Part shown: in pieces, positions 178 through 29,853 of the stretch
How positions within the stretch are numbered: position 1 is the stretch's first letter
Layout: the number at the start of each line of letters is the position of its first letter
Assembly: GCA_034928305.1 (NCBI GenBank)
Contig: JAYFOZ010000002.1
Location: 1-64,000, forward strand
Source of the DNA: Methanomassiliicoccaceae archaeon
GTDB lineage: Archaea > Thermoplasmatota > Thermoplasmata > Methanomassiliicoccales > Methanomethylophilaceae
Length of the DNA: 64,000 nt
Direction: 5' to 3'
The notes under the pieces: generated by a model
The model's input: only the letters and a program-made list of their open reading frames with translations
Databases searched by the model: none
What the model was told of the DNA's origin: nothing
Position numbers and translations under genes: made by a program

Positions 178-1959
178 CCCGCGTTTGACACATAGGGCTC
201 TTTTTCAGAATATGGCGTGAGCTTCAGCGATAGCGATCCTGTCGATACTGGGCAAAGATAGAATAGGCCTTTCGATAGTTCTTAGTCGCCAAACCACAAA
301 CAGGCCGAAAGGCCGTCTTTATCATCAGAATCGAATCCTTTAATCTTGCGGTCCGAGGTCTGTTTTGTTTGGCGGGAAAAGAGAGAAAATGTCCCGTAAG
401 AGAAGCAGACTGCATGTGAAGATACCGGCACCGAACGAAAATGTGACGATGATCGCGGGCAACAAGGTCCTTGCGGAATCCGTGTTCCGGGAGATGGGTT
501 TGGACGTGTTCCTAAACGGATTGAAACGGTCTCAGGGCAACTCCGTTGCAGCTGAGACGATTGCTCTGGTAGCGAACTCAGTGGAGATGACGGGATTATC
601 CGTGAACCGTTTGGATAGGTTGCTGAACAATGACGTGATCCGTGCGGAGTACGGACTGGACGCCAACGCGCCCAGGTCCGTGTACCGCACCGTCGAACGT
701 CTGGGGAGGAACAGCGATTCCATCGTCTCATTCCTAGGACGCGTACTGAAGTCGAGATACGGGGTGAAGATGGACACCGTCTTCATGGATTGGACCTCGA
801 TGTACTTCGAAGCACCACAGAAAGGTGTGGTCCGCGTAGGGTATTCGAGGGACCACAGACCTGACAGGCCTCAGGTGACCGTTGGATTGAGCATGGACCG
901 CGATTCGGGGATGCCTGTAGGATTGACCGTGAATCCGGGGAACATACTGGATGTGACGCACTTCGACGACACGCTGAAGCAGGTCCTTCCGATACTGCCG
1001 AAGGATGCGATGATCGTCTTCGATAATGGCGCGTATTCCATGAACAACGCCAGGATGCTGGATTCCAATGGTCTCGGATTCGTGACGCGCATGCAGCTGA
1101 ACGCATCGGACGATGCGTTCGTGAAGGCGCATCGTGATGAATGGATCGAAATCGACGAGGATATCTCGTTCATAAGGACCAAAGGCAACCTCGGACGTAC
1201 GAGGTACATATTCAGGAACCTGAAGTTGCGTTCCGATATCCTGTACCGTTATCGCAGCAAGGCGAAGCACGACTGGGACGAGATGCAGACGATCAGGAAG
1301 AACATAGATTCGGGACGGAGGCCGCGTAAGAAGTACCGTAACTCGAATTGTTTCGTCGACACTCGATTGTCCTATCAGTTCCCCTTGGGAGGAAGGACCG
1401 AGGAGGAAGCTTTGGATATGGCCGTGGACAGGATGATGGCGGGACGCGAGGGGCTTTTCGTGCTGCTGTCGAACCGTCCGTTGACAGCTTCGGAGATACT
1501 CGACCTGTACCGTGCGAGGAACGACGTGGAGACGGCGTTCCGCGACCTCGAACACGGGATTGACTGGAGACCGGCCAGATGCACTTCCGAGGATGCGATC
1601 AGAGGACGTACCCTGATCTCGTTCCTGGCGTTGTTCTGTATGTCCATGATACGCTTTCTCTATCCCGAGTTCCGCGGGAGGACTGCAGAATCGATGTGCG
1701 AGGAGCTGAGCTCGTTCTCACTTACGGTTCTGGTGCAGAATGGGATGGAGAGAAGACGTGTTTTCAGCAATTTCGGACGCATCATCCGTCGTCTGTGGGG
1801 GCAAAAAGAGTCTGTTCCGGTGCCGAAGGCACCCGGACAGACGCTCATAGACGATATTCTCGTCTGAAGAACGCCGAGTGAGAACGCGGATCGGACGTAC
1901 AATGGCGAAATCATTCAGCGAAAGCCAGGTCAAAACCTCACGTAAGTGTCAGACTCGGG
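178..1959 (+). mobile_element. Intact IS1634/IS4-like insertion sequence
   Basis: A complete element of 1,782 bp with one transposase gene. Its ends are 14-bp imperfect inverted repeats (CCCGCGTTTGACAC at 178-191; GTGTCAGACTCGGG at 1946-1959, two mismatches). It is flanked by a 6-bp direct repeat CTGAAA at 172-177 and 1960-1965. The target lies in the 3' part of the older copy's transposase gene. Everything needed for a functional element is visible. Confidence 0.88.
389..1867 (+). CDS. IS1634/IS4-like DDE transposase
   Basis: DDE transposase of 492 residues that cuts and joins the ends of the surrounding IS. The three acidic positions are visible in FMDWTSMYFE, IVFDNGAYS and the Y-x2-R-x3-E segment YRARNDVE. 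The region GYSRDHRPDRPQV followed by NPGNILDVTHFDDT is characteristic of IS1634 relatives. I chose ATG 389, where the conserved MSRKRSRLH begins; an upstream in-frame TTG at 365 would add eight residues. The gene is intact and ends with TGA, unlike its neighbour copy. Confidence 0.9.
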   Translation: MSRKRSRLHVKIPAPNENVTMIAGNKVLAESVFREMGLDVFLNGLKRSQGNSVAAETIALVANSVEMTGLSVNRLDRLLNNDVIRAEYGLDANAPRSVYRTVERLGRNSDSIVSFLGRVLKSRYGVKMDTVFMDWTSMYFEAPQKGVVRVGYSRDHRPDRPQVTVGLSMDRDSGMPVGLTVNPGNILDVTHFDDTLKQVLPILPKDAMIVFDNGAYSMNNARMLDSNGLGFVTRMQLNASDDAFVKAHRDEWIEIDEDISFIRTKGNLGRTRYIFRNLKLRSDILYRYRSKAKHDWDEMQTIRKNIDSGRRPRKKYRNSNCFVDTRLSYQFPLGGRTEEEALDMAVDRMMAGREGLFVLLSNRPLTASEILDLYRARNDVETAFRDLEHGIDWRPARCTSEDAIRGRTLISFLALFCMSMIRFLYPEFRGRTAESMCEELSSFSLTVLVQNGMERRRVFSNFGRIIRRLWGQKESVPVPKAPGQTLIDDILV

Positions 1960-1965
1960 CTGAAA
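1960..1965. repeat. Target-site duplication, right copy
   Basis: CTGAAA, the partner of 172-177. Sequence to its right resumes the older transposase pseudogene at the codons for the RRIFS segment. Confidence 0.8.
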
Positions 1966-3334
1966 ATACGTCTTTTCTCCATGCCTTTCTGCACCAGAAC
2001 TGTAAGTGAGAACGAGTTCAGCCCCTCGCACATCGATTCCGCTGTCTTTCCGCGGAACTCTGGATATAGGAAACAAACAACGGACATGCAGAACAATGCG
2101 AGAAACGATATCAGGATACGACCTCTTATGGCATCCTCGGATATGCATATAGCCGGCCTCCAATCGATTCCGTGCTTCGGGTCGCGGAACGCCGTCTCCA
2201 CATCGTTCCTCGCATGATACAGATCGAGGATCTCCGAAGCTGTCAACGGACGGTTTGATAACAGCACGAAAAGTCCCTCGCGGCCTGTCATCATACTGTT
2301 CACGGCCATATCCACAGTTTCATCCTCGCTCCTTCCCCCGAAAGGGAACTGATACGATAGCTTCGTGTCATGAAACAGTTCGAATTGCGGTACTTCTTGC
2401 GCGGTCTCTTCCCGGAATCCATGTTCTTCCAGATCGTCTACATCTCGTCCCAATCGTGCTTGGCTTTCGCACGATAACGATGGAGTATGTCGGAACGCAG
2501 CTTCAGGTTCCTGAAGATGTATCTCGTCCTTCCGAGATTGCCTTTCGTCCGCATGAATGAGATATCGTCGTCGATCCTCACCCACTCGTTCCAATGAACC
2601 TTCACGAACGCATCGTCTGATGCGTTCAGCTGCATGCGCGTCACGAAACCCAAGCCCTCGGAATCCAGCAATCTTGCGTTGTTCATCGAGTACGCCCCGT
2701 TATCGAAGACTATCATAGCACCCTCCGGCAGTATCGAAAGCACTTGTTTCAGAGTGTCGTCGAAATGCGTCACGTCTAATATGTCCCCGGATTCACCGTC
2801 AGTCCTACCAGCATCCCCGAATCGCGGCACATGCTCAATCCCACGGTGACCTGGGCCTGTCCAATCTATGATCTCTGGAATAACCCACACGGAAAACGCC
2901 CTTCTGGGATGCCTCGAAGTACATCGAGGTCCGGTCCATGAAGACGGTATCCATCTTCACACTATATCTCTGTTTCAGCACACGTCCCAGAAATGCAACG
3001 ATCGCATCGCTGTTCCTTCCTAGACGTTCCACGGTACGGTACACGGATTTCGGAGCATTCGCATCCAATCCATACTCTTCGCGGACGATATCGTTCTCCA
3101 GCAATCTGTCCAAACGGTTGACGGACAATCCTGTCATCTCCATCAAATTGGCGACGAGAGCGACGGTCTCGGCGGCAACGGAGTTGCCCTGAGGCCGCTT
3201 CAATCCGTCAAGGAATATATCCAAAGCCATCTCCCGGAACACGGATTCCGCAAGGATCTTGTTACCTGCGGTCATGGTGATGTTTTCGTCGGCATCGGTA
3301 TCTTTTTGTGTAGTCTGCTTCTTCTACGAGACAT
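1960..3334 (-). pseudogene. Decayed IS1634/IS4-like transposase, disrupted by IS insertion
   Basis: Relative of the 389-1867 transposase in opposite orientation. Against that copy I see single-base deletions near 3285 (before MTAGNKILAES), near 2855 (after DRP), near 2782 (before GDILDV) and near 2370 (before DTKLSYQ). There is also a CAG-to-TAG change at about 2428-2430, after DWDEM. The C-terminal end is cut off at 1965 by the younger IS; its continuation lies at about 145-177. The catalytic regions FMDRTSMYFE, IVFDNGAYS and YHARNDVE are still readable. It cannot make a full transposase. Confidence 0.88.
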
Positions 3335-3786: not shown

Positions 3787-6576
3787 TTACATCTTAAGAT
3801 TATCCAGCTCCAATTTGGCCCATTTATTGCCATTGGCTACTGCCTTCTGATACCAAACTTTAGCCAACCCCATATTCTTTGTCACGCCCTTACCATCACG
3901 ATACATACGGGCAAGCCTCCCCTGCATTCCAGCATTTCCTGACTCTGCAATAGGTTCACAGATGTTAAATGCTACTTTCCATTTGGTTTCATCATCAACA
4001 GACATAAGTAAATCAATACATTCTCCGGCCCAAGATTTACTATTGGATGTTGCTTTAATCATCCAAGATATAGCCAGTTCTGGATTTTTTTCTGTTCCAT
4101 GGCCATCACGATACATACGGGCAAGCCTCCCCTGCATATTGGAAATGCCCTGTTCTGCGAGCGGTTTACATATTTTGAAGGCCTCATTGCATTTATCATC
4201 ATCACTGGTAGAAATTAATAAATCAATAAATTCTCCTGCCCAACCTGTGTTTTTCACAACAGCTCTTCCATACCAGTACAGTGCAGCTTCAGTGTCTTTA
4301 TCTGTTCCATGGCCATCACGATACATACGGGCAAGCCTGCACTGTCCAAATGGATCATTCGCGTTGGCCATATCTGTACAGATTTTAAATGCCTGTGAAT
4401 AGTCATATGGTGCACCAGATTGGATTAGGATGTCAACATACTCGCGACGAGCCCAGTCAAGACCACACTCAAAGGCAACCCTCATTAGCCTGGCGGCCTC
4501 GCTGATATTTTTTTCAGTACCCTTACCATCACGATACAAACGGGCCAATCTACCATATATCTGAGGATTATTGCTTTCAGTCGAGTTTTCAAGCCTTATG
4601 AAAAGATTTTTCATTTCATCATCGGGTGCCGACTTCCACTTTTCATCAAACTCTTTAATCAGTGCAGATGCGCTCTCTTTCTTTTTATTATTGCCCCTAA
4701 TTTTTTTAAGCGTTTCCATAATAGTCCTCCTTATTGTCCTTTTTTTCGGTTTCTTCTCTATAAACACAAACTGCTTATTAGCAACGATTCCTGATATACA
4801 TCCACTTAAGCGTGCTTTCTTGCCAGCCAAAACCTGACCGTCGTGATATCTGTTCAATACTATGTAATAATAGGGGGACAGTTTGGCATAATGCCACCAT
4901 CTGTCGGCCAATGCACATGAAAGATCCGCCCAGGGTTTTGTTTCTGCGGCATAGTGTGTTATCACTGGACGATTGTTGGCTTCATTTATTTCATTTTGAG
5001 TAAATATTTTTAATAGCTGTTCAGGTGTTTTTTCATATTTTGCAATCATACAATTGAATTTGTATGGTAAATGGAGAATGTGGTTGTAACATGCTCGATT
5101 AATCACATCCTGATCTTGAGAACGAAGTCCAAGCTTAGATAGCGCTATGAACTCTTCCTCGATACCATTTTCTCTAATTTTCTTCAGGTTAAAGATTAAC
5201 ATTCCAGCATTTACATATTGATCTATTGCAGGCAGTCCATTCTCAATGCAATACTGCACATTGCCGTCAGTGGCCCAATGATAACTAGCTGCCTTTACTC
5301 CAGCAATGTAATTGTCACCAAGATCGGTGAGAAAACAATCCATCAAATCCCACTCAACGGCTACATCCGAATCCATGTAAATCATTTTTTCATATTGCGG
5401 AAAAAGACTTGAGGCCATGAGCCTATAGAATGTCGGATGTGTTATATGGGGGATATTTAATTTTACATCATTGAAACAATCATCGCCCATTTTGATATAT
5501 TCAATTGAGCAATTACCGTATTTAGATACTATTTCTTGGAATTTAGCATCAGTATCATAATCAAAAGTCGAAGAAGTTAGAATGAAAAAAGAATATTTCG
5601 CATCGCATCTTCTGTTCTCTAATGCGGAAAGAATAGTGATGCCAGTTTGTGGAGTATAGTTTTTATCGGTAGCTAGTATTATTGGGATATTTTTGATATG
5701 GGCCCTATTATCTAGTTGTAATCTCTCCAAAGGCTGAGCATACGGGCTAATTTTGTAATAATCGTACCACTCCTTTGCATATGGAATATCTCCATATTTC
5801 CATGGTTTATTTTTGGAGGCATAGTGGAAGATGGCCGCGTCTTTGTAGAGATCATAAAGACATGAGTAATCGACATGATATAGGGCGTTAAGGTCCTTGA
5901 TGTCAAACTTGTGAGCAGAGTTCCACAGATTGACGATTAGACAGTTGTACACAATTGGTAATTCGACAATCTTGCCGTCAAATACTATATTAAATGCATC
6001 CTGATCAACAAATTTATTATTATTTAAATCAGACTTGGCGTTTACCAACAACATTGTTGCATTGTCTTTCCTCATTTCATCAAGATTTAATAGTAGAACT
6101 CCGGAATTAAAATAATTCGAAAGCGCCCCCCTCAAACCTTCATTGTTATATATTATTCCGGAATCTCTTACAACGCCTGCATACTTGCCAGTCAAACCTG
6201 TTGAAAATATATTGGAGATGTCCTTCCTCACAATTATGTCCGAATCCAGATACAGTGCGATGTCTTCATCCAAGAGATTTGGAATCTCGAATTTTAGCAG
6301 GGCTGTTATTGAGCCAGCGCCCGTGTTACCATCGTATTCCTTGTAAATGGACTGATATTTTTCAGTGGACACAACTAGAATTTCAACATCAGCGCCCCAT
6401 TTCGGAGTAGAAAATTCCATAATAATTTTTCTACTGACATCAGACAGTCCAGGGGTACAGGCATAAATTTTGAATTCGGTATCGGGAGCTTTGTTAATCA
6501 ACAATGATGATATTGCCGCGCTGGTGGGTCCAATAAATTTGTCATCGAATACAAAAACCACTGCATATTTTTTCAT
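3787..6576 (-). CDS. Double GT8 glycosyltransferase with C-terminal Sel1 repeats
   Basis: A 929-residue predicted cytoplasmic protein. Residues 1 to about 290 form a first GT8-type domain with the DxD site LYLDSDIIV. Residues from about 297 to 600 form a second GT8 domain with IYMDSDVAVEWD. GT8 enzymes transfer sugars from nucleotide donors with retention of configuration. The last 270 residues are Sel1-like (TPR-related) helical repeats with the signature ARMYRDGxGTxKN. A good ribosome site (AGGTGG) lies 6-7 bases before the ATG. The gene is AT-rich compared with the core genes further right. Two catalytic domains suggest either two linkages or one inactive partner; the acceptor is unknown. 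Confidence 0.85.
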   Translation of the reverse strand: MKKYAVVFVFDDKFIGPTSAAISSLLINKAPDTEFKIYACTPGLSDVSRKIIMEFSTPKWGADVEILVVSTEKYQSIYKEYDGNTGAGSITALLKFEIPNLLDEDIALYLDSDIIVRKDISNIFSTGLTGKYAGVVRDSGIIYNNEGLRGALSNYFNSGVLLLNLDEMRKDNATMLLVNAKSDLNNNKFVDQDAFNIVFDGKIVELPIVYNCLIVNLWNSAHKFDIKDLNALYHVDYSCLYDLYKDAAIFHYASKNKPWKYGDIPYAKEWYDYYKISPYAQPLERLQLDNRAHIKNIPIILATDKNYTPQTGITILSALENRRCDAKYSFFILTSSTFDYDTDAKFQEIVSKYGNCSIEYIKMGDDCFNDVKLNIPHITHPTFYRLMASSLFPQYEKMIYMDSDVAVEWDLMDCFLTDLGDNYIAGVKAASYHWATDGNVQYCIENGLPAIDQYVNAGMLIFNLKKIRENGIEEEFIALSKLGLRSQDQDVINRACYNHILHLPYKFNCMIAKYEKTPEQLLKIFTQNEINEANNRPVITHYAAETKPWADLSCALADRWWHYAKLSPYYYIVLNRYHDGQVLAGKKARLSGCISGIVANKQFVFIEKKPKKRTIRRTIMETLKKIRGNNKKKESASALIKEFDEKWKSAPDDEMKNLFIRLENSTESNNPQIYGRLARLYRDGKGTEKNISEAARLMRVAFECGLDWARREYVDILIQSGAPYDYSQAFKICTDMANANDPFGQCRLARMYRDGHGTDKDTEAALYWYGRAVVKNTGWAGEFIDLLISTSDDDKCNEAFKICKPLAEQGISNMQGRLARMYRDGHGTEKNPELAISWMIKATSNSKSWAGECIDLLMSVDDETKWKVAFNICEPIAESGNAGMQGRLARMYRDGKGVTKNMGLAKVWYQKAVANGNKWAKLELDNLKM
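3893..4553 (-). repeat. Tandem Sel1-coding repeats, ~210-bp period
   Basis: A near-identical block (CCATCACGATACATACGGGC and flanks, plus-strand reading) recurs at 3893, 4103, 4313 and, with changes, 4526. The spacings are 210, 210 and 213 bp. Each period encodes a 70-71 residue double Sel1 unit in the GT8 gene. The strong nucleotide identity between copies points to recent duplication or gene conversion. Confidence 0.85.
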
Positions 6577-6966: not shown

Positions 6967-8522
6967 ATGAGTTATGACCACATCAAGACCGTGGGCGGGA
7001 ATCACTATCTGTATCGTGTGACCGGTGTCTGGGACCCCGAGAAGAAGAACTCCAGACAGGTTCGCGATATGTCGTACCCTGCGATACCGAAGGCAATTCC
7101 GTCCAATCGGGGAAGAGGGATGCTGTCGCCGTAAGCAAGACATTCGGACTATACTGGCTTCTTCAGTGTATATCGGACGATATCGGTCTTGATAGGATGT
7201 TGAACGAATGTTTTGAAAAAGATGTAGCAGAGGACATATTCACTTTGGCCGTTCTGAGATGTGTCCGTCCGGTACTTCTTAGGCAGACGGACAATCTGAT
7301 GCAGGAATCCATCCTTTCGGAGTACAGAAACAACGACGGAATGGGTTCGAGAGATCCTTACAGACCGCTTTCGGGGATAAACGAAGACGGAAGGAACAGA
7401 TTCTTTTTCGAAAGATACGACGGAAAAAGTGTGGTCATATTCGATCTTTCGGCATTCGGAACAGAATCGTCGAGGAGGTCCAGAGCGGAATATGGAGACT
7501 ATTATAGGAATATATGCATGCCGCAGGTGAGCATGGGCATGGTGCATTCGATGGATACCGGATTGCCGTTCTGTCATCGTCTTTACGGAGGAAGCATCTC
7601 CGATGTCAAGATATTGGAGAGCATGGCGTTATTCGTTTCATCATTGGGCTGCAATGACATCCATTTCGTGATGGACCGCGGTTTCTTCATCAAAAACAAT
7701 ATTCTGAGGCTGCTGGATAGCGGGATAGGATTCACAACTCCTGTTCCCGGGGGCAGGAGGATCTTCAAGACGATTGTATCGGAATCGGTCAGGAACATGA
7801 GCTCGCTGAACACGGGAGTGTTCAACGGCGAGGTCATCAGATATTTTGATACAAAGCAGAGATAAGAGGGAGAACGGTCAGGGCATTGTCATATCTGGAT
7901 GAGGCCAGAAGACTGGACGAGATAACGACATTGTATTCCAGATTGGATTCCTTCGAAACGGTATTGTACGATACTAAATGGACCGAAGGCATCCACAGGA
8001 AGCTTAGGCAGCAGTTCGGAACGGACATTCTGAGATATTTCGAACTTTCCGATGACAACGTGAACGTAGCGTATCGGAGGAAGAGGAATGCGATAACGGC
8101 CAAAGAGAACACGTGCGGGCGTATGGCGATCCTCACGACATCCGACGGTTCATGGGATTCTGTGCTGTCGATGTACAGGCAGAGGAATGACGCTGAGTCG
8201 GATTTCAGCATCCTGAAATCCAATCTGGCCGGAGGTGTGAGGTACTTTCAGACCGACAAGGCGGCAGACGGCCTGGTCCTTGTTCAGTTCGTGAGTCTGA
8301 TCCTAAGATGCGAACTGATGAACAGGATCAGAATGAGCACCGATCTGAACCGGAAGGTGTGGTATCCCGATGTTATGAACGAGCTGTCAAAATCGAAAGT
8401 ATCGAAAATCGGGGACAAATGGGTCCTCAACGAGGTATCGAAGAAATAGGCTGTTGTTCGAGAGACTTGGCATGGATGAACCGACAACTTCGGACCTGAG
8501 AGACCTTGTTACCAAATCTTAA
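6967..8522 (+). pseudogene. Decayed DDE transposase with several frameshifts
   Basis: The N-terminal piece from ATG 6967 contains YLYRVTGVWDPEKKNSRQVR. It then shifts frame near 7075-7095 into a long stretch to 7865 with FDLSAFGTESS, PQVSMGMVHSMDTGLP and VMDRGFFIKNN. It shifts again near 7860-7890 into a frame with YRQRNDAESDFSILKS, the Y-x2-R-x3-E region, up to TAG 8447-8449. A further +1 shift gives LLFERLGMDEP and the end near 8522. The family pattern is that of an IS4/IS1634-type DDE enzyme. At least three frame changes make a functional product unlikely. Confidence 0.85.
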
Positions 8523-12319: not shown

Positions 12320-13117
12320 TTGAAAATTAAGGATAAATTATGGGGAAAAATGAGGGAACTATATAAGTTCAGATACATGTCATATTCTCTGATAAGGAAG
12401 AGTCTATTCGGAAAATATAAGAATTCGGCGCTCGGATTCCTCTGGAATTTCTTGACTCCAACAATTTCAATATTGATATTCTATGTAGTGTTCGAAAATT
12501 TTATGGGTAAGGACATACCGTATTTTTGGGTATACCTATGCGTGGGGATGTTTCCGTTCTCCTTTATGAACTCAAATCTAATGGGCGGAGCATCCAACAT
12601 AACGTCAAATGCTGGCATGATTAAGAAAATGTATTTTCCAAGGGAAATCCTTCCGCTATCGCAGGTATCTTATACACTCATAGTATTTTTCATAGCTTAT
12701 TCGATAGTCGCATTTTTGATGGTAATTACTGGTTTTCCATTAAGTTTGGAAGGGCTGTTGGCGCTTCCGTTGCTAATAATATTGATGTTTATTTTTTCAC
12801 TAGGCATGATTTTGTTGACATCGGCAATTTCAGTGTACTCTCGGGATTTTGAGTATTTAATTACTGCATTAGCAAGAATCTTGTTCTGGATGACACCAAT
12901 TTTCTATTTGGCGGAGTCACGGACTGGAATACTATATACATTAATATGGTTTAATCCTCTGACGTATTTTGTGGAAGGCTTTCACGATATCCTATACAGG
13001 GGCATTGTACCCAGTTCAGAGATTCTGTTGATGTGTTTACTGATATCGGCAGTAATGATATTTTTTGGTTTGTTGACTTTTGAGAAGCTAAAAGATGGAT
13101 TTGCAGAGAGGATATAA
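12320..13117 (+). CDS. ABC-2 type polysaccharide export permease (Wzm/TagG-like)
   Basis: A 265-residue membrane protein with about six membrane segments. The N-terminal part (SYSLIRKSLFGKYKNSALGFLW) and the WFNPLTYFVEGF-type segment near the C-terminus are typical of ABC-2 exporters of O-antigen, teichoic acid or capsule polymers. It starts at TTG 12320 with a strong AAGGGGAG ribosome site upstream. Its stop overlaps the ATG of the ATPase gene (TAATG), so the two are translationally coupled. It would form the channel moving lipid-linked glycan to the outer face of the membrane. Confidence 0.9.
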   Translation: MKIKDKLWGKMRELYKFRYMSYSLIRKSLFGKYKNSALGFLWNFLTPTISILIFYVVFENFMGKDIPYFWVYLCVGMFPFSFMNSNLMGGASNITSNAGMIKKMYFPREILPLSQVSYTLIVFFIAYSIVAFLMVITGFPLSLEGLLALPLLIILMFIFSLGMILLTSAISVYSRDFEYLITALARILFWMTPIFYLAESRTGILYTLIWFNPLTYFVEGFHDILYRGIVPSSEILLMCLLISAVMIFFGLLTFEKLKDGFAERI

Positions 13118-15741
13118 TGACAGACAACATTGCGGTGGCGGTCAGTAATGTTTGCAAGTCATTTAGGACCCGCGTGGCCGTACACAACGAGAAGAGTCTG
13201 TTCAAAAAAACTGAAAAAATTACACGCGACATAATAGATAACATAAGTTTTGATATAAGGAAGGGCGAAACATTTGGGATAATTGGAAGGAACGGGTCTG
13301 GAAAAAGTACACTTCTAAAGATAATATCTATGATAATGACGCCAGATTCTGGCAATATTGATATTAATGGAAGGGTTGCCAGCATACTTGAGCTGGGAAT
13401 GGGGTTCCATCAGGATATGAGTGGTAGGGAGAATATCTACATCAAGGGATCTATGTATGGTTTCATAAAGGAACAGATTGACGAAAGATTTGAAGACATC
13501 GTTAAGTATGCAGAACTAGAGGACTATATTGATTTGCCAGTTAGAGTTTATTCATCGGGAATGTCCTCCCGCCTAGCGTTCGCGATAATGATTAATGTTG
13601 ATGCGGACATAATGATTCTAGATGAAGTCCTTTCAACGGGAGACCTGTCATTCAGTAAGAAATCCGGTGCACACTTCTCGAACATGAAGGGACTGGGAAA
13701 AACAATAATAATCGTCTCACACGCAATGGGGACCATCAGGGAAATGTGTGATAGGGTTGCATGGATCGACAAAGGAAAGATAAGGGAAATAGGTGTGCCG
13801 AGCGTTGTATGTGGGCATTATGAGACGGAGCTGGCGGAGTCCTTCGAAGTGATTGAAGAACTTGCCGAATCTGGAGTTCCTGCGTCACAAAATGCGCTGG
13901 GATGCATGTACCGTGACGGAATTAACGTCGACAAGAATACGGAATCTGCAATAGCATGGTTCGAGAGGGCGGCTGGCTATGGTAATGAAGAGGCGAAGAT
14001 TAATCTCGCTGACATAATAGTTGGGGAAGGTAAATTAGAGGAACGCGAAAGGGCGCTGGACTTGTATATGAGCGCCGCAAGGAAAGGCAACCGCGATGCG
14101 CGCACCAAGCTCTCCAGATTATTGACAGAGGAAAAATCAGATTTCGGAAAAGAGGTGGCCGAAGATTTCATGAAATTGCTGCCCTCTGGAAATCCGTCTC
14201 TGTATTACGATTACGCAGACCTTATAATGAAGACGGCCTGGAACAACGAAGAGCGGTCGAAAGCATTAAGATGGTTTCAAAAATCTGCAGATTCCGGCAA
14301 TGCAAATGCAATGTACCAGATTTCGATAATGTATCGTGACGGTAACGGTCCGAAAAAAGACATATCGAAACATTTAGAATGGCTTAGGAAGGCGGCAGAA
14401 AACGGTCACGTATTGTCCCAGCTGACTCTTGGAAATATGTATCGCGACGGTATAAGAGTAGAAAGCGATGAATCGGAAGCTTTTCGATGGTATGAAATGG
14501 CTGCGAAGAACAACAATCTAGATGCAATCTATCAGATGGCCATAATGTATCGTGAGGGAAAAGGTGTTAATCAGAATGAGGACGAGTCTGATCGTTGGCT
14601 CAGACTCTACTCGGAGCATGACCTTCTGCGTCAGATCAACATCCTGGCCGACTCGTTCTCCCACTGCAAGAACGGAGTTTACGACCCGGAGATCGGCATG
14701 AAATGGTATTCCGTCAACGCGGAGCACAACAACGCCGAATCGAAGTATCAGATGGGGATGATGTTGGCAGACAGCGAAGAGGCGGAGAAGAAGTCTTCGG
14801 AGGCGGTATCTCTTTTCAATTCCGCGGCAGAGAACGGGCATTTGAACTCGGCCGTCAGGTTGTCAAATTTATACGGACTGGGTCTTGCCGACGAATCCGC
14901 TATGGACAGGGCCATAAAGACTATGGACAATCTAGCGAAAAGCGGGAACCCATGGGCCGCCGTCACTATCGGCAACATGTACGCCAACGGCAACGTAGTG
15001 GATGCGGATGGCGAAAAGGCCGTCGAATATCTGAAGATCGCAGCAGCATCGAGCCTTCCGGGCGCCATGCAGAAACTGGGAGAGATGTATCGTGACGGAA
15101 CACTTGTTGAGCAAAATCCAGAAGAAGCGATAAGATTATTCAAAGAAGGGATTATTTCCGGCAACCCCATATCCGCTGTATCGATAATCAACATGTATGG
15201 ATCAGGGGCTGCCGATAAAGAAGCTCTCGACCATGCATTGAAAGGCCTGGAAGATATCTGCTTGAAGGGAAACTTATTCGCGATGAGAACCCTGGGCAAT
15301 TATTATTCGAATGGTATCGCCGTAGAAACGGATGAGAATAAGGCACTATATTGGTATAATATCGCGTCAAAGTTTGGAGATTCCGGATCAACACATACTG
15401 TGGGAATAATGCATCGGGACGGCAAAGGCACCGAGAAAAATCCCGCAGAAGCAATTAAATATTTCAGAACTGCCACGGAACAAGGCAACATCAATTCGAT
15501 ACTAGCAATCATAGGTATGCGTGGTGCCGGTCAAACGGACGAAGAAAGTTTTGAACTCGCTCTAAAACGCCTGGAACAGTTAGCAAACGGCGGAAATCTC
15601 GCAGCTATGCGCTCTTTGGGCAACCTATATCTCGAAGGAAAATCAGTACCGAAGGATATTGAAAAAGCCAGGCTCTGGCTGGAGAGGTCCGCATCTTTAG
15701 GAGACGCATTCTCACGCAACAAGCTGAAGGCCATAGGCTGA
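13117..15741 (+). CDS. ABC exporter ATPase (Wzt-like) with long Sel1-repeat tail
   Basis: An 874-residue protein. Residues 1 to about 245 are an ABC ATPase of the polysaccharide-export class: Walker A GRNGSGKST, signature YSSGMSSR, Walker B IMILDEVLS and switch histidine VSHAMGT. Bacterial Wzt proteins follow this with a beta-sandwich glycan-binding domain. Here residues from about 250 to 874 are instead some 15-17 Sel1-like repeats (CMYRDGINVDKN, IMYRDGNGPKKD, NMYRDGIRVESD and so on). It is coupled to the permease upstream. Repeats from about 14590 to 15090 are visibly richer in GC than those on either side. The tail may dock a transferase, select substrate, or scaffold; that is inference. 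Confidence 0.88.
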   Translation: MTDNIAVAVSNVCKSFRTRVAVHNEKSLFKKTEKITRDIIDNISFDIRKGETFGIIGRNGSGKSTLLKIISMIMTPDSGNIDINGRVASILELGMGFHQDMSGRENIYIKGSMYGFIKEQIDERFEDIVKYAELEDYIDLPVRVYSSGMSSRLAFAIMINVDADIMILDEVLSTGDLSFSKKSGAHFSNMKGLGKTIIIVSHAMGTIREMCDRVAWIDKGKIREIGVPSVVCGHYETELAESFEVIEELAESGVPASQNALGCMYRDGINVDKNTESAIAWFERAAGYGNEEAKINLADIIVGEGKLEERERALDLYMSAARKGNRDARTKLSRLLTEEKSDFGKEVAEDFMKLLPSGNPSLYYDYADLIMKTAWNNEERSKALRWFQKSADSGNANAMYQISIMYRDGNGPKKDISKHLEWLRKAAENGHVLSQLTLGNMYRDGIRVESDESEAFRWYEMAAKNNNLDAIYQMAIMYREGKGVNQNEDESDRWLRLYSEHDLLRQINILADSFSHCKNGVYDPEIGMKWYSVNAEHNNAESKYQMGMMLADSEEAEKKSSEAVSLFNSAAENGHLNSAVRLSNLYGLGLADESAMDRAIKTMDNLAKSGNPWAAVTIGNMYANGNVVDADGEKAVEYLKIAAASSLPGAMQKLGEMYRDGTLVEQNPEEAIRLFKEGIISGNPISAVSIINMYGSGAADKEALDHALKGLEDICLKGNLFAMRTLGNYYSNGIAVETDENKALYWYNIASKFGDSGSTHTVGIMHRDGKGTEKNPAEAIKYFRTATEQGNINSILAIIGMRGAGQTDEESFELALKRLEQLANGGNLAAMRSLGNLYLEGKSVPKDIEKARLWLERSASLGDAFSRNKLKAIG

Positions 15742-26781: not shown

Positions 26782-27822
26782 ATGACCAAAAAGATCGATC
26801 AGGCAGTCATTATGGTCGGAGGCAAGGGTACCAGGCTCAGGCCGCTTACGGAGACCTGCCCCAAGCCCGCGCTGCCGGTGTTGGACAAGCCGTGCCTGAT
26901 GTACCTCATCGAGTCGGTGGCCGCCGCCGGCATAAAAGAGGTCATTCTGGCCTGCGGATACAGGTCCCAGCAGCTCGTAGAATCCATAGGGGACGGCTCG
27001 GAACTGGGCGTCCATATATCCTATTCGTTCGAGGACGAGCCTCTTGGAACCGCTGGGGCGATTAAAAAGGTCGAAGACATGCTGGGAGATACGTTTGTCG
27101 CGGCCAACGGGGACGTATTCGCCGATATTGACATGAAAGAGGAGATAAATGAGCACTTTTCCTCCGGAGCGACGGTCACAATGTCGCTCATTCCTGTCGA
27201 TAATCCGTGCGAGTTCGGTATCGCCAGGGTCGGGACGGACGGCAGGATATCCGAATTCAAGGAGAAGCCGAAGCCGGAAGAGGCCTTCTCCAACCTTATC
27301 AACGCAGGAGTCTACGTTCTGGAAAAGAGGATCCTCGACCTGGTGCCCGAAAATACCCAGTACGATCTTTCCAAGGAGCTCATACCGAGGCTTATGGACA
27401 GGGGTGACAGGATACAGGGCTACATGCTCAACGGGATCTGGCGCGATGTGGGCCGCCCATCCGATCTGATAGGCGCCAATCTGATAGCCGCCGAGAAACG
27501 GTTCGGCAAAGAGGACTGGACCGCGCACGACGTTTCGCGCACCAGTATAGAGGGGCCGTTCTTCCTGGGAGAAGGTTCCAGCATATCGGACTCCAGTTCC
27601 GAGTCCTCGGTGATCTTAAAGGGATGCAGGGTAGCAGGGAGCAGATTAAAAGGCTCCTTGATAATGCACGGTTGCAAGGTAGAGAACGCTGAGGTAAGCA
27701 ACAGCATACTGGGCAACGGTTGCACGATATCATGCGGCTCGGTGATAGACGGTTCTGTCCTGGGTGACGGAACGCACGTCGCACCGGGAACCATTATAGT
27801 CGATAACGAGGTGAAGAAATGA
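26782..27822 (+). CDS. Sugar-1-phosphate nucleotidyltransferase with left-handed beta-helix tail
   Basis: A 346-residue enzyme with the nucleotide site GGKGTRLRPLTETCPKP and the metal aspartate in AANGDVFADID. The C-terminal third has hexapeptide-like repeats (SSISDSSSESSVILKGCRV, CTISCGSVIDGSVLGDG). It transfers a nucleoside monophosphate to a sugar-1-phosphate. The next two genes make heptose-1-phosphate, so the likely product is GDP- (or ADP-) D-glycero-D-manno-heptose, as HddC does; a mannose-1-phosphate guanylyltransferase is the main alternative. Its stop overlaps the kinase start (ATGATG). Confidence 0.82.
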   Translation: MTKKIDQAVIMVGGKGTRLRPLTETCPKPALPVLDKPCLMYLIESVAAAGIKEVILACGYRSQQLVESIGDGSELGVHISYSFEDEPLGTAGAIKKVEDMLGDTFVAANGDVFADIDMKEEINEHFSSGATVTMSLIPVDNPCEFGIARVGTDGRISEFKEKPKPEEAFSNLINAGVYVLEKRILDLVPENTQYDLSKELIPRLMDRGDRIQGYMLNGIWRDVGRPSDLIGANLIAAEKRFGKEDWTAHDVSRTSIEGPFFLGEGSSISDSSSESSVILKGCRVAGSRLKGSLIMHGCKVENAEVSNSILGNGCTISCGSVIDGSVLGDGTHVAPGTIIVDNEVKK

Positions 27823-28829
27823 TGTACATACGCTCTAGGGCGCCTTTGAGGATAGGAATGGCAGGGGGCGGGACCGACGTGGACCCCTACGCCTCTCAGA
27901 AGGGGGGCGCCGTTTTCAACTCCACCATCTCGAAATACGCTTACTGCACGATCACTCCCAACGACACGAACAGGATGTCGATAGAATCGACCAACTACGG
28001 GAAGTATGAAGCGCCCCTGGACGGCGGGCCTCTGCCCCTGGACGGAAACATGGACCTTGTGAAGGCCGTGACCAACCACTTCGAGATCGAAGAAGGTTTC
28101 AACATGCTCCTGCAGTCGGACGCTCCTCCGGGCTCCGGCCTCGGAGGTTCGTCGACGGTCATCGTGGCGGCGATAGCGGCCATAGCCGAATGGATCGGCG
28201 AAAAGATGACCGGCCATGAAATGGCGAAGCTCGCGTACGAGCTGGAAAGGGAAGACATAGGTCTGAAGGGAGGAAAGCAGGACCAGTATGCCGCGGTGTT
28301 CGGAGGCTTCAACCTCATGAAGTTCAGGTCCGACGGAGTAGACGTCAACAGGATAAAACTGAAGGAGCACACGCTGAACGAGCTCCAGTGCAGATCCGTG
28401 CTGTGCTACACCGGAAGTACAAGGGAGTCTGCAAACATCATCGATTCGCAGGTGAAATCGTTCAAGAAAGGCGACAACGAATCCGCGCTCGACATCAGCA
28501 AGGAGATAGCCCGCGACATGGCCTCCGCTCTCGAAAAGGACGACATAGAGGAGACGGCCAGGCTTCTCGACATCGGATGGAAGTACAAGAAGCAGTTCTC
28601 GGACAAGATCACCAACCCGAAGATAGACGAGCTCTATAACGCGGCTTTGTCCGCCGGGGCGATCGGAGGCAAGGTATCCGGCGCAGGAGGCGGGGGATTT
28701 ATGTTTTTCATCTGCGAATATGACAAGAAGTTCGTGGTGTCCGAAAAATTGATGAAGCACGGGGCCGTGGTAACGGATTTCCTGTTCGAACAGAATGGAG
28801 TAATGGCATGGAGGGGCGGAAATGAATGA
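27819..28829 (+). CDS. hddA: D-glycero-D-manno-heptose 7-phosphate kinase-like GHMP kinase
   Basis: A 336-residue GHMP kinase that would phosphorylate heptose-7-phosphate at C1. The N-terminal RAPLRIGMAGGGTDVDPYA is diagnostic of HddA-like kinases. The ATP loop is APPGSGLGGSSTV and the C-terminal glycine loop is KVSGAGGGGFMFF. It overlaps the genes on both sides (ATGA with 26782-27822; eight bases with the GmhA-GmhB gene), indicating one coupled operon. A fucose or other sugar kinase is less likely given the neighbours. Confidence 0.87.
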   Translation: MMYIRSRAPLRIGMAGGGTDVDPYASQKGGAVFNSTISKYAYCTITPNDTNRMSIESTNYGKYEAPLDGGPLPLDGNMDLVKAVTNHFEIEEGFNMLLQSDAPPGSGLGGSSTVIVAAIAAIAEWIGEKMTGHEMAKLAYELEREDIGLKGGKQDQYAAVFGGFNLMKFRSDGVDVNRIKLKEHTLNELQCRSVLCYTGSTRESANIIDSQVKSFKKGDNESALDISKEIARDMASALEKDDIEETARLLDIGWKYKKQFSDKITNPKIDELYNAALSAGAIGGKVSGAGGGGFMFFICEYDKKFVVSEKLMKHGAVVTDFLFEQNGVMAWRGGNE

Positions 28830-29853
28830 TATCATTCAGCAGGAATTGAAGAGGAGCGCAGAAGCGATCACCGGTATCGCTCCGGAACAGATACGCGCCG
28901 CGGCAGACGCGATGATCAGATCTCTCAAGGCCGGCGGGCAGGTCATATTCATGGGGAACGGCGGCTCCTCCGCCGATGCGCAGCATATCTCCGCCGAGCT
29001 TTCAGGGCGATACATGATGGAGCGCCCCGCCATGGCGGGCGTGTGCCTTTCCAACATAGCGCCCGTGACGGCCATAGGCAACGATTACAGCTACGATATG
29101 GTGTTCAAGCGTCAGATCGAGGCAATATGCAGGAAGGGGGACGCCGTAGTCGGGCTGTCCACTTCAGGAAAATCGAAGAACGTAATACTGGCAATGGAGG
29201 CCGCCAAGGAGAAAGGGGCGACCACGATATCGTTCACCGGCCCCGGAGGCACCATGAAGGACATAGCCGATGTGGCAGTGACCATCAACACGACCGAAAC
29301 TCCCAGGATACAGGAGGGGTATTTCGTCGCCTGCCACACGATATGCGGAATAATCGAGAGGGAGATGTACGGACCGAAGGCCGTGTTCCTGGACCGCGAC
29401 AATACCATGGCTCCCGATGTCCCATACTGCAGCGACCCCGCCGATTTCAACGTCTTCGAATACGTTCCCGCGCAGATAGCCAGGCTCAATATGGCAGGAT
29501 ATATGGTCATAGTAGTGACGAACCAGTCCGGCATAGGGCGCGGATATCTGGACGATGGGACACTTGCAAAGATCCACGAAAAGATGAAGTCACAGGTCGC
29601 CGAAGGCGGAGGCAGGATAGACGATATCTTCTATTGCCCGCACACGCCCGAGGAAGGATGCGGTTGCAGGAAGCCCGAGACGGGCATGGGCATCGCCGCA
29701 GTAAGGAAGCACGGAATAAACACGTCCGTTTCCTATATGATCGGAGATGCGGAGAAAGACATGGAGTTCGGACGCGACATCGGATGCAGGACGATACGCG
29801 TGGACGAAAAGTTCACTCTGAAAGATGCCGTCGACCAGATACTCGGATCATAA
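28822..29853 (+). CDS. gmhA-gmhB: Fused sedoheptulose-7-P isomerase and heptose bisphosphate phosphatase
   Basis: A two-domain protein of 343 residues. Residues 1 to about 185 are a GmhA-type SIS isomerase (FMGNGGSSADAQHISAEL, GLSTSGKSKNV) making heptose-7-phosphate from sedoheptulose-7-phosphate. Residues from about 188 to 343 are a GmhB-type HAD phosphatase: FLDRDNT (nucleophile), VVTNQSGIGRG, zinc ligands in CPHTPEEGCGCRKP and IGDAEKDM. GmhB removes the 7-phosphate after the kinase. In bacteria these are usually separate genes. With the two upstream genes it completes a four-step heptose pathway in three reading frames. Confidence 0.9.
   Translation: MNDIIQQELKRSAEAITGIAPEQIRAAADAMIRSLKAGGQVIFMGNGGSSADAQHISAELSGRYMMERPAMAGVCLSNIAPVTAIGNDYSYDMVFKRQIEAICRKGDAVVGLSTSGKSKNVILAMEAAKEKGATTISFTGPGGTMKDIADVAVTINTTETPRIQEGYFVACHTICGIIEREMYGPKAVFLDRDNTMAPDVPYCSDPADFNVFEYVPAQIARLNMAGYMVIVVTNQSGIGRGYLDDGTLAKIHEKMKSQVAEGGGRIDDIFYCPHTPEEGCGCRKPETGMGIAAVRKHGINTSVSYMIGDAEKDMEFGRDIGCRTIRVDEKFTLKDAVDQILGS

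Follow-up and report, generated by a model that had tools for sequence, protein, structure and literature searches.

To our knowledge, how ABC polysaccharide exporters time their engagement of a growing chain is solved for end-cap exporters alone; in CBM-less exporters, timing is attributed to a transporter:synthesis complex with undefined contacts. In Aquifex Wzt, Tyr233 of the hinge helix contacts the glycan, and the carbohydrate-binding domain (CBD) is attached after this helix (PMC9445017). The Klebsiella O2a exporter, which is CBM-less, couples chain extension to export (PMC11231755). Earlier work placed the Sel1-repeat proteins of gut Methanomassiliicoccales among adhesion or host-interaction factors (PMC7883539, PMC4153887). 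The locus described here, from a methanogenic gut archaeon (Methanomassiliicoccaceae archaeon), encodes an exporter ATPase of the Wzt type and a long Sel1 array in a single polypeptide.

The window (the whole 64,000-nucleotide stretch that was analysed) contains one intact open reading frame at 13117–15741 on the forward strand, running from ATG to TGA and encoding 874 residues. Residues 1–245 (13117–13851) form a nucleotide-binding domain (NBD) of the Wzt/TagH type with intact catalytic motifs, as assigned by Pfam (ABC_tran at residues 41–171, E 2e-22), NCBIfam, alignment, structure model and Foldseek. In an alignment of 27 fused orthologs, most residues of the Walker A, Walker B, signature and H-loop motifs are invariant or nearly so. 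Walker A (GRNGSGKS, residues 57–64; 13285–13308) retains G57, N59, G60, G62 and K63 throughout, and the ABC signature (YSSGM, residues 145–149; 13549–13563) likewise retains Y145, S146, G148 and M149; Walker B (13609–13626) ends in D169-E170, of which D169 is invariant and E170 is kept in at least 90%. With H202 as the H-loop, the ABC ATPase domain originally predicted for the first 245 residues is complete in every motif. The hinge helix (residues 228–241; 13798–13839), located by model and alignments, bears a near-invariant Y235 that PDB alignments place level with, or adjacent to, the hinge tyrosines of Wzt. Scores against the TagH and galactan-export NCBIfam equivalogs (170–186 bits) lie below the curated cut-offs of 320–538, and hydropathy gave no obvious membrane-spanning stretch in the fused ATPase.

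The remainder of the protein consists of Sel1 repeats, which we divide into a tail core (about residues 246–520; 13852–14676) and a C-terminal extension (residues 521–874; 14677–15738). Pfam assigns Sel1 with a whole-protein E value of 3.8e-69, seven stretches passing individually, and the PF08238 score of 227 bits compares with a curated cut-off of 30.7; the model and Foldseek show the alpha/alpha solenoid fold. No Pfam match to Wzt_C (PF14524) was obtained for the window protein or for six fused orthologs. An AlphaFold2 model built with 27 orthologs (mean pLDDT 86, pTM 0.56) comprises a Wzt-like NBD, the hinge helix and then paired helices only, with about 17 hairpins and no beta sandwich between residues 243 and 873; at this pTM, how the tail is oriented towards the NBD in the model is uncertain. 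The prediction of a 620-residue tail with 15–17 repeats is therefore accurate. Foldseek matched WzmWzt and TagH NBDs over about 235–250 columns (6m96, TM 0.86 by target length) and full-length Wzt (7k2t) over 238 columns, a span as long as its NBD, while the rest of the protein matched Sel1 solenoids (6ok3, 4bwr). Across PDB and Foldseek comparisons, the NBD is closest to those of Wzt and TagH.

Immediately upstream, on the same strand, lies a gene for a Wzm-type ABC-2 permease of 265 residues (12320–13117; Pfam ABC2_membrane, E 1.3e-14), the stop codon of which overlaps the ATPase start codon by one base. Its match to the NCBIfam galactan-export permease model is well below cut-off. A Wzm homologue directly precedes the fused ATPase in every fused locus with a readable flank. 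Other genes of the locus encode a UDP-sugar dehydrogenase, epimerases, glycosyltransferases of families GT2, GT4 and GT8, and GDP-heptose-type functions; among the latter, a nucleotidyltransferase, a heptose kinase-like protein (HddA) and a GmhA-GmhB fusion at 26782–29853 are likely to serve GDP-heptose synthesis. A GT8-GT8 glycosyltransferase (3787–6576, reverse strand; Pfam) carries a C-terminal Sel1 tail of its own and is a candidate partner in the window genome. Judged by sequence, the NBD similarity, the co-encoded ABC-2 permease and the glycan locus identify the protein as the ATPase component of an exporter of the Wzm-Wzt type. Transposase genes at 365–1867, 1938–3275 and 7197–8449 flank and interrupt the upstream glycan genes; one gives a clear DDE_Tnp_1 match, and the others are apparently broken copies or weak matches. 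Compared with two genomes of the same genus (G002 and G004), the DNA is colinear from Wzm downstream at about 75% identity, and upstream of Wzm their gene sets differ in part from that of the window. That the exporter and its tail stay while the glycan genes partly change argues against both a glycan-specific role for the tail and an obligate GT8-Sel1 partner.

The host genome (1.34 Mb, six contigs) encodes one protein of the fused type, its only Wzm-Wzt-type exporter; the next match to the fused query is a different ABC ATPase (E 8e-24). Among 102 Methanomethylophilaceae genomes, 34 match the query at E ≤ 1e-60, and 32, counted by match extent, hold a tailed exporter, distributed over seven of the 14 genera (g1, g2, g3, g4, g6, g7 and g12). 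Two genomes (G013 and G022) have tail-less exporters only, and five (G010, G063, G065, G069 and G124) seem to hold both kinds. A scan of contigs recovered only five close relatives, in named records of the same family (UBA370, UBA72, UBA421, UBA381 and WOFA05). In 390 Thermoplasmatota genomes sampled across the phylum, no fusion occurs among the matches listed outside Methanomethylophilaceae; these end by query residue ~268 in open frames of 230–510 residues and thus leave no room for a tail. The restriction to this family applies within Thermoplasmatota; the bacterial comparison covered plasmids, where the listed tblastn matches include no Wzt-Sel1 or GT8-Sel1 fusion. Where plasmid matches covered much of the exporter, they came from distinct genes lying side by side, one for a Sel1 protein and one for a type-I-secretion ABC protein; for GT8-Sel1, the listed matches covered only the GT8 part. 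The Sel1 repeat is abundant in Methanomethylophilaceae; of 12 genomes sampled from the other families in the order, 11 lack it at E ≤ 1e-7. An assembly or local fusion artefact was rejected, since the same single frame recurs in many independently assembled genomes; with orthologs in seven genera in the Thermoplasmatota search, the gene is not the isolated local fusion that the original prediction had allowed for. The literature examined on Sel1 with Wzt contains no description of a Wzt-Sel1 fusion. Extra C-terminal domains are already known on Wzt and TagH.

The origin of the fusion was approached through a tree of NBDs alone (40 rows, 29 of them tailed ATPases), rooted by midpoint only. All 29 tailed ATPases lie on one side of a single branch (support 100/97); tail-less ATPases of Methanomethylophilaceae adjoin them, and Wzt_C-bearing ones lie further out. 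Pfam recognises Wzt_C in six exporters from elsewhere in the order, in one of them just marginally, whereas the tail-less exporters of the family and one from another family (G048) have neither Wzt_C nor a Sel1 tail. The simplest reading of this tree is a single fusion event onto a domain-less Wzt. With tail-less proteins as the nearest relatives and Wzt_C confined to families further away, the probable course is that a domain-less exporter gained the tail, not that the tail replaced a glycan-binding domain. The expectation of a beta-sandwich domain at this position thus needs adjusting: the window protein does have none, but such a domain is not universal in Wzt, being missing from the nearest relatives here and from known bacterial CBM-less exporters (PMC11231755).

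Conservation within the tail is graded. Residues ~245–505 align in register with few gaps in all 27 fusions, and column conservation is 0.64 in the NBD, 0.52 in the tail core and 0.35 beyond residue 505. In the core, A463, G481 and G483 are invariant, and W494 and Y498 exceed 90%. Beyond 505 the tail is lineage-specific, the C-terminal extension being present at full length in the window genus and its nearest relatives, and total length varies by lineage from about 640 to 874 residues. From residue ~576 onward there are three super-repeats of 108 residues, the last shortened; self-comparison peaks at offsets of 108 and 216 with units 31–40% identical, and by this sequence pattern the C-terminal third grew by 108-residue duplications. 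Where synonymous change is not saturated, pairwise dN/dS is 0.06–0.28 for the tail and 0.05–0.13 for the NBD. Values well below 1 indicate that the tail is maintained, in most pairs somewhat less tightly than the NBD, and this purifying selection speaks against an inactive tail. Sequence, synteny and ortholog conservation together support the predicted exporter identity, the tail as a genuine conserved part and the unusual architecture.

Several irregularities accompany this picture. Tail identity between same-genus genomes is 73–88%, and between window positions 14120–15019 and G002 (locus L020) the DNA is 93–95% identical in two short stretches and 65–89% around them, a patchiness that may reflect local recombination. 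In G011 (L022:8935–9100), 166 consecutive N interrupt the exporter gene where identity changes abruptly, which may reflect a scaffolding error in the public assembly; an apparent frameshift proved to be this run, and the jump was dropped as evidence for modular exchange. The G063 ortholog seems broken in the tail by a frameshift. In-frame TAG codons occur inside the fused exporter genes of G069 (L052; C3:43628–45133) and G096 (C55:1662–3056). Archaea of the Methanomethylophilaceae type can read TAG as pyrrolysine, and these codons may be read through in this way or mark broken genes.

Turning to other Sel1 proteins, the host genome has 11 Sel1 frames, eight of them Sel1-only by Pfam; those with other Pfam domains are the fused exporter and the GT8-GT8 protein. 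A third, of 936 residues on contig C5 beside sugar-nucleotide enzymes, has a long N-terminal part without a Pfam match. Hydropathy indicated no obvious membrane segment in the exporter or in the other ten. Beside the exporters of relatives, GT2, DUF6270 and DUF1919-GT8 proteins carry Sel1 tails. Sel1-tailed enzymes were located, besides the one at window 3787–6576, at L020:2–2761, L024:2421–3935, L029:10776–14651 and L047:7810–10617, with GT8, GT2, DUF6270 and DUF1919-GT8 catalytic domains and one without assignment. The enzyme tails are mostly 30–46% identical to each other and 24–29% to the exporter tail, which is closest to stand-alone Sel1 proteins encoded elsewhere in its own genome. From these identities, it is as if the enzymes shared a common address label in the glycan loci of Methanomethylophilaceae. 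A Sel1-tailed glycan enzyme lies near 11 of 16 exporters in one group and none of nine in the other (Fisher P 0.001, a value that overstates independence, as the groups follow the exporter tree, the loci are related and flank lengths differ). Over all loci, 334 kb hold 11 other Sel1 genes where 2.8 would be expected, roughly fourfold the rate in the genomes as a whole; this count leaves out the window locus and includes L083:5321–5839, which is probably the end piece of a broken exporter tail belonging to that locus. The tail-less exporter locus of G013 also has a Sel1-tailed neighbour, which, with the group of nine that has none, indicates that no Sel1-tailed enzyme is an obligate partner. 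Nor is GT8-Sel1 conserved as a specific partner: the exporter of G004 is 79% identical in protein sequence, and no Sel1 enzyme lies within about 7–8 kb of it. Related proteins occur in roughly half of the fused loci (L069–L073, L075, L077–L080, L028 and L088), in several cases directly upstream of Wzm; one 516-residue member matches a BspA-type leucine-rich repeat.

Sel1 repeats are a protein-binding fold. We propose that the tail is a cytosolic docking scaffold that keeps glycan-assembly proteins at the exporter and couples synthesis to export, a proposal we regard as evenly balanced between right and wrong. In this reading, the protein would serve as ATPase subunit in the Wzm-Wzt-type export of a lipid-linked surface glycan. 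A single joining event, in an ancestor of some Methanomethylophilaceae, would have linked the hinge helix of a CBD-less Wzt to a Sel1 solenoid like those that have multiplied in this family. With two ATPase copies per transporter, two solenoids would hang under the cytosolic channel mouth and hold the proteins of the glycan assembly line there, so that synthesis and export would be physically coupled. Given its descent from a CBM-less exporter, the fusion is most naturally read as a scaffold that makes coupling stronger. In yeast, the cytosolic Sel1-repeat protein Chs4 binds, activates and anchors a membrane glycan synthase (PMC9603707). The earlier suggestion that the repeats recruit glycosyltransferases is plausible when widened to glycan enzymes in general; its GT8-Sel1 partner is the part that did not hold.

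The main rival places the function of the tail within the exporter itself, where it would dimerise across the ATPases or bind Wzm, gating hydrolysis or stabilising the complex with no recruitment of enzymes. Conservation of the core to ~505 with or without Sel1-tailed neighbours is what would be expected if the exporter were the partner, and the tail follows immediately on the hinge helix, at the attachment point of the CBD in Wzt; however, 17 repeats far exceed the needs of dimerisation, and a length that varies among lineages and grows by block duplication is more typical of a binding surface, so that we think this rather doubtful. A tether to a non-glycan partner (the envelope, the division machinery or stand-alone Sel1 proteins) that sets the site of export seems unlikely: the best own-genome matches to the tail are indeed stand-alone proteins, and Chs4 likewise fixes its synthase in place (PMC9603707), but these archaea offer no known candidate partner, and no conserved non-glycan gene is found with the exporter at every locus. 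Sensing of chain completion, suggested originally as an alternative, through binding of the glycan end as in the Wzt CBD found no support and is very improbable. The shared position and the retained hinge tyrosine would suit it, but the fold is an all-helical solenoid and not a lectin-like sandwich, the fusion apparently arose from domain-less relatives and not by a Wzt_C swap, and upstream glycan genes differ within a genus in which tails remain highly similar, unlike what a glycan-specific reader would require. A chance fusion that is merely tolerated or decaying would fit the few orthologs that seem broken in the tail (G063, G069 and G096) and the presence of the exporter in only about a third of genomes, but is scarcely credible given a single origin, retention in seven genera, a colinear core and dN/dS well below 1.

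The docking-scaffold proposal admits a tentative extension, in which the exporter with its own long docking array and enzymes with related Sel1 address tails might form a membrane glycan factory. Such a factory, if real, would amount to a third mode of coupling, replacing end-cap recognition or loose transporter-synthase association, and an exporter with a built-in docking tail would make the transporter:synthesis complex directly testable.

Among known systems, O8/O9a-type Wzt (Aquifex aeolicus WzmWzt; 7k2t, 8dku), an NBD plus the Wzt_C carbohydrate-binding domain, shares with the window protein its NBD sequence and fold (37–38% identity in the Foldseek match), an adjacent Wzm, the hinge helix and an extra C-terminal domain at the same place, but the window protein has a 17-repeat Sel1 solenoid there instead of a beta sandwich. 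CBM-less Wzt proteins (Klebsiella O1/O2 and mycobacterial; 9qfx, 263 residues) similarly have no glycan-binding domain, yet they stop after the NBD, where the window protein continues for about 630 residues of repeats. The TagH/TarH teichoic-acid ATPases provide the best PDB and NCBIfam NBD matches, far below equivalog cut-offs, but have no Sel1 tail; TagH of B. subtilis has a different C-terminal extension. AlgK (alginate), ExoR and fungal Chs4/Skt5 are likewise Sel1 solenoids that work with a polysaccharide machine, although each stands alone as a protein and none is joined to an exporter motor; the NCBIfam AlgK model matches the exporter tail and the ExoR model the GT8-Sel1 tail, both below cut-off. 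Finally, the Sel1 proteins of gut Methanomassiliicoccales belong to the same repeat family and lineage. The host-genome Sel1 proteins checked have no obvious secretion or membrane segments, and the exporter and GT8-Sel1 are glycan-pathway proteins by domain content. An exporter with a docking tail would also suggest cytosolic roles for some gut-methanogen Sel1 proteins so far read as adhesion factors.
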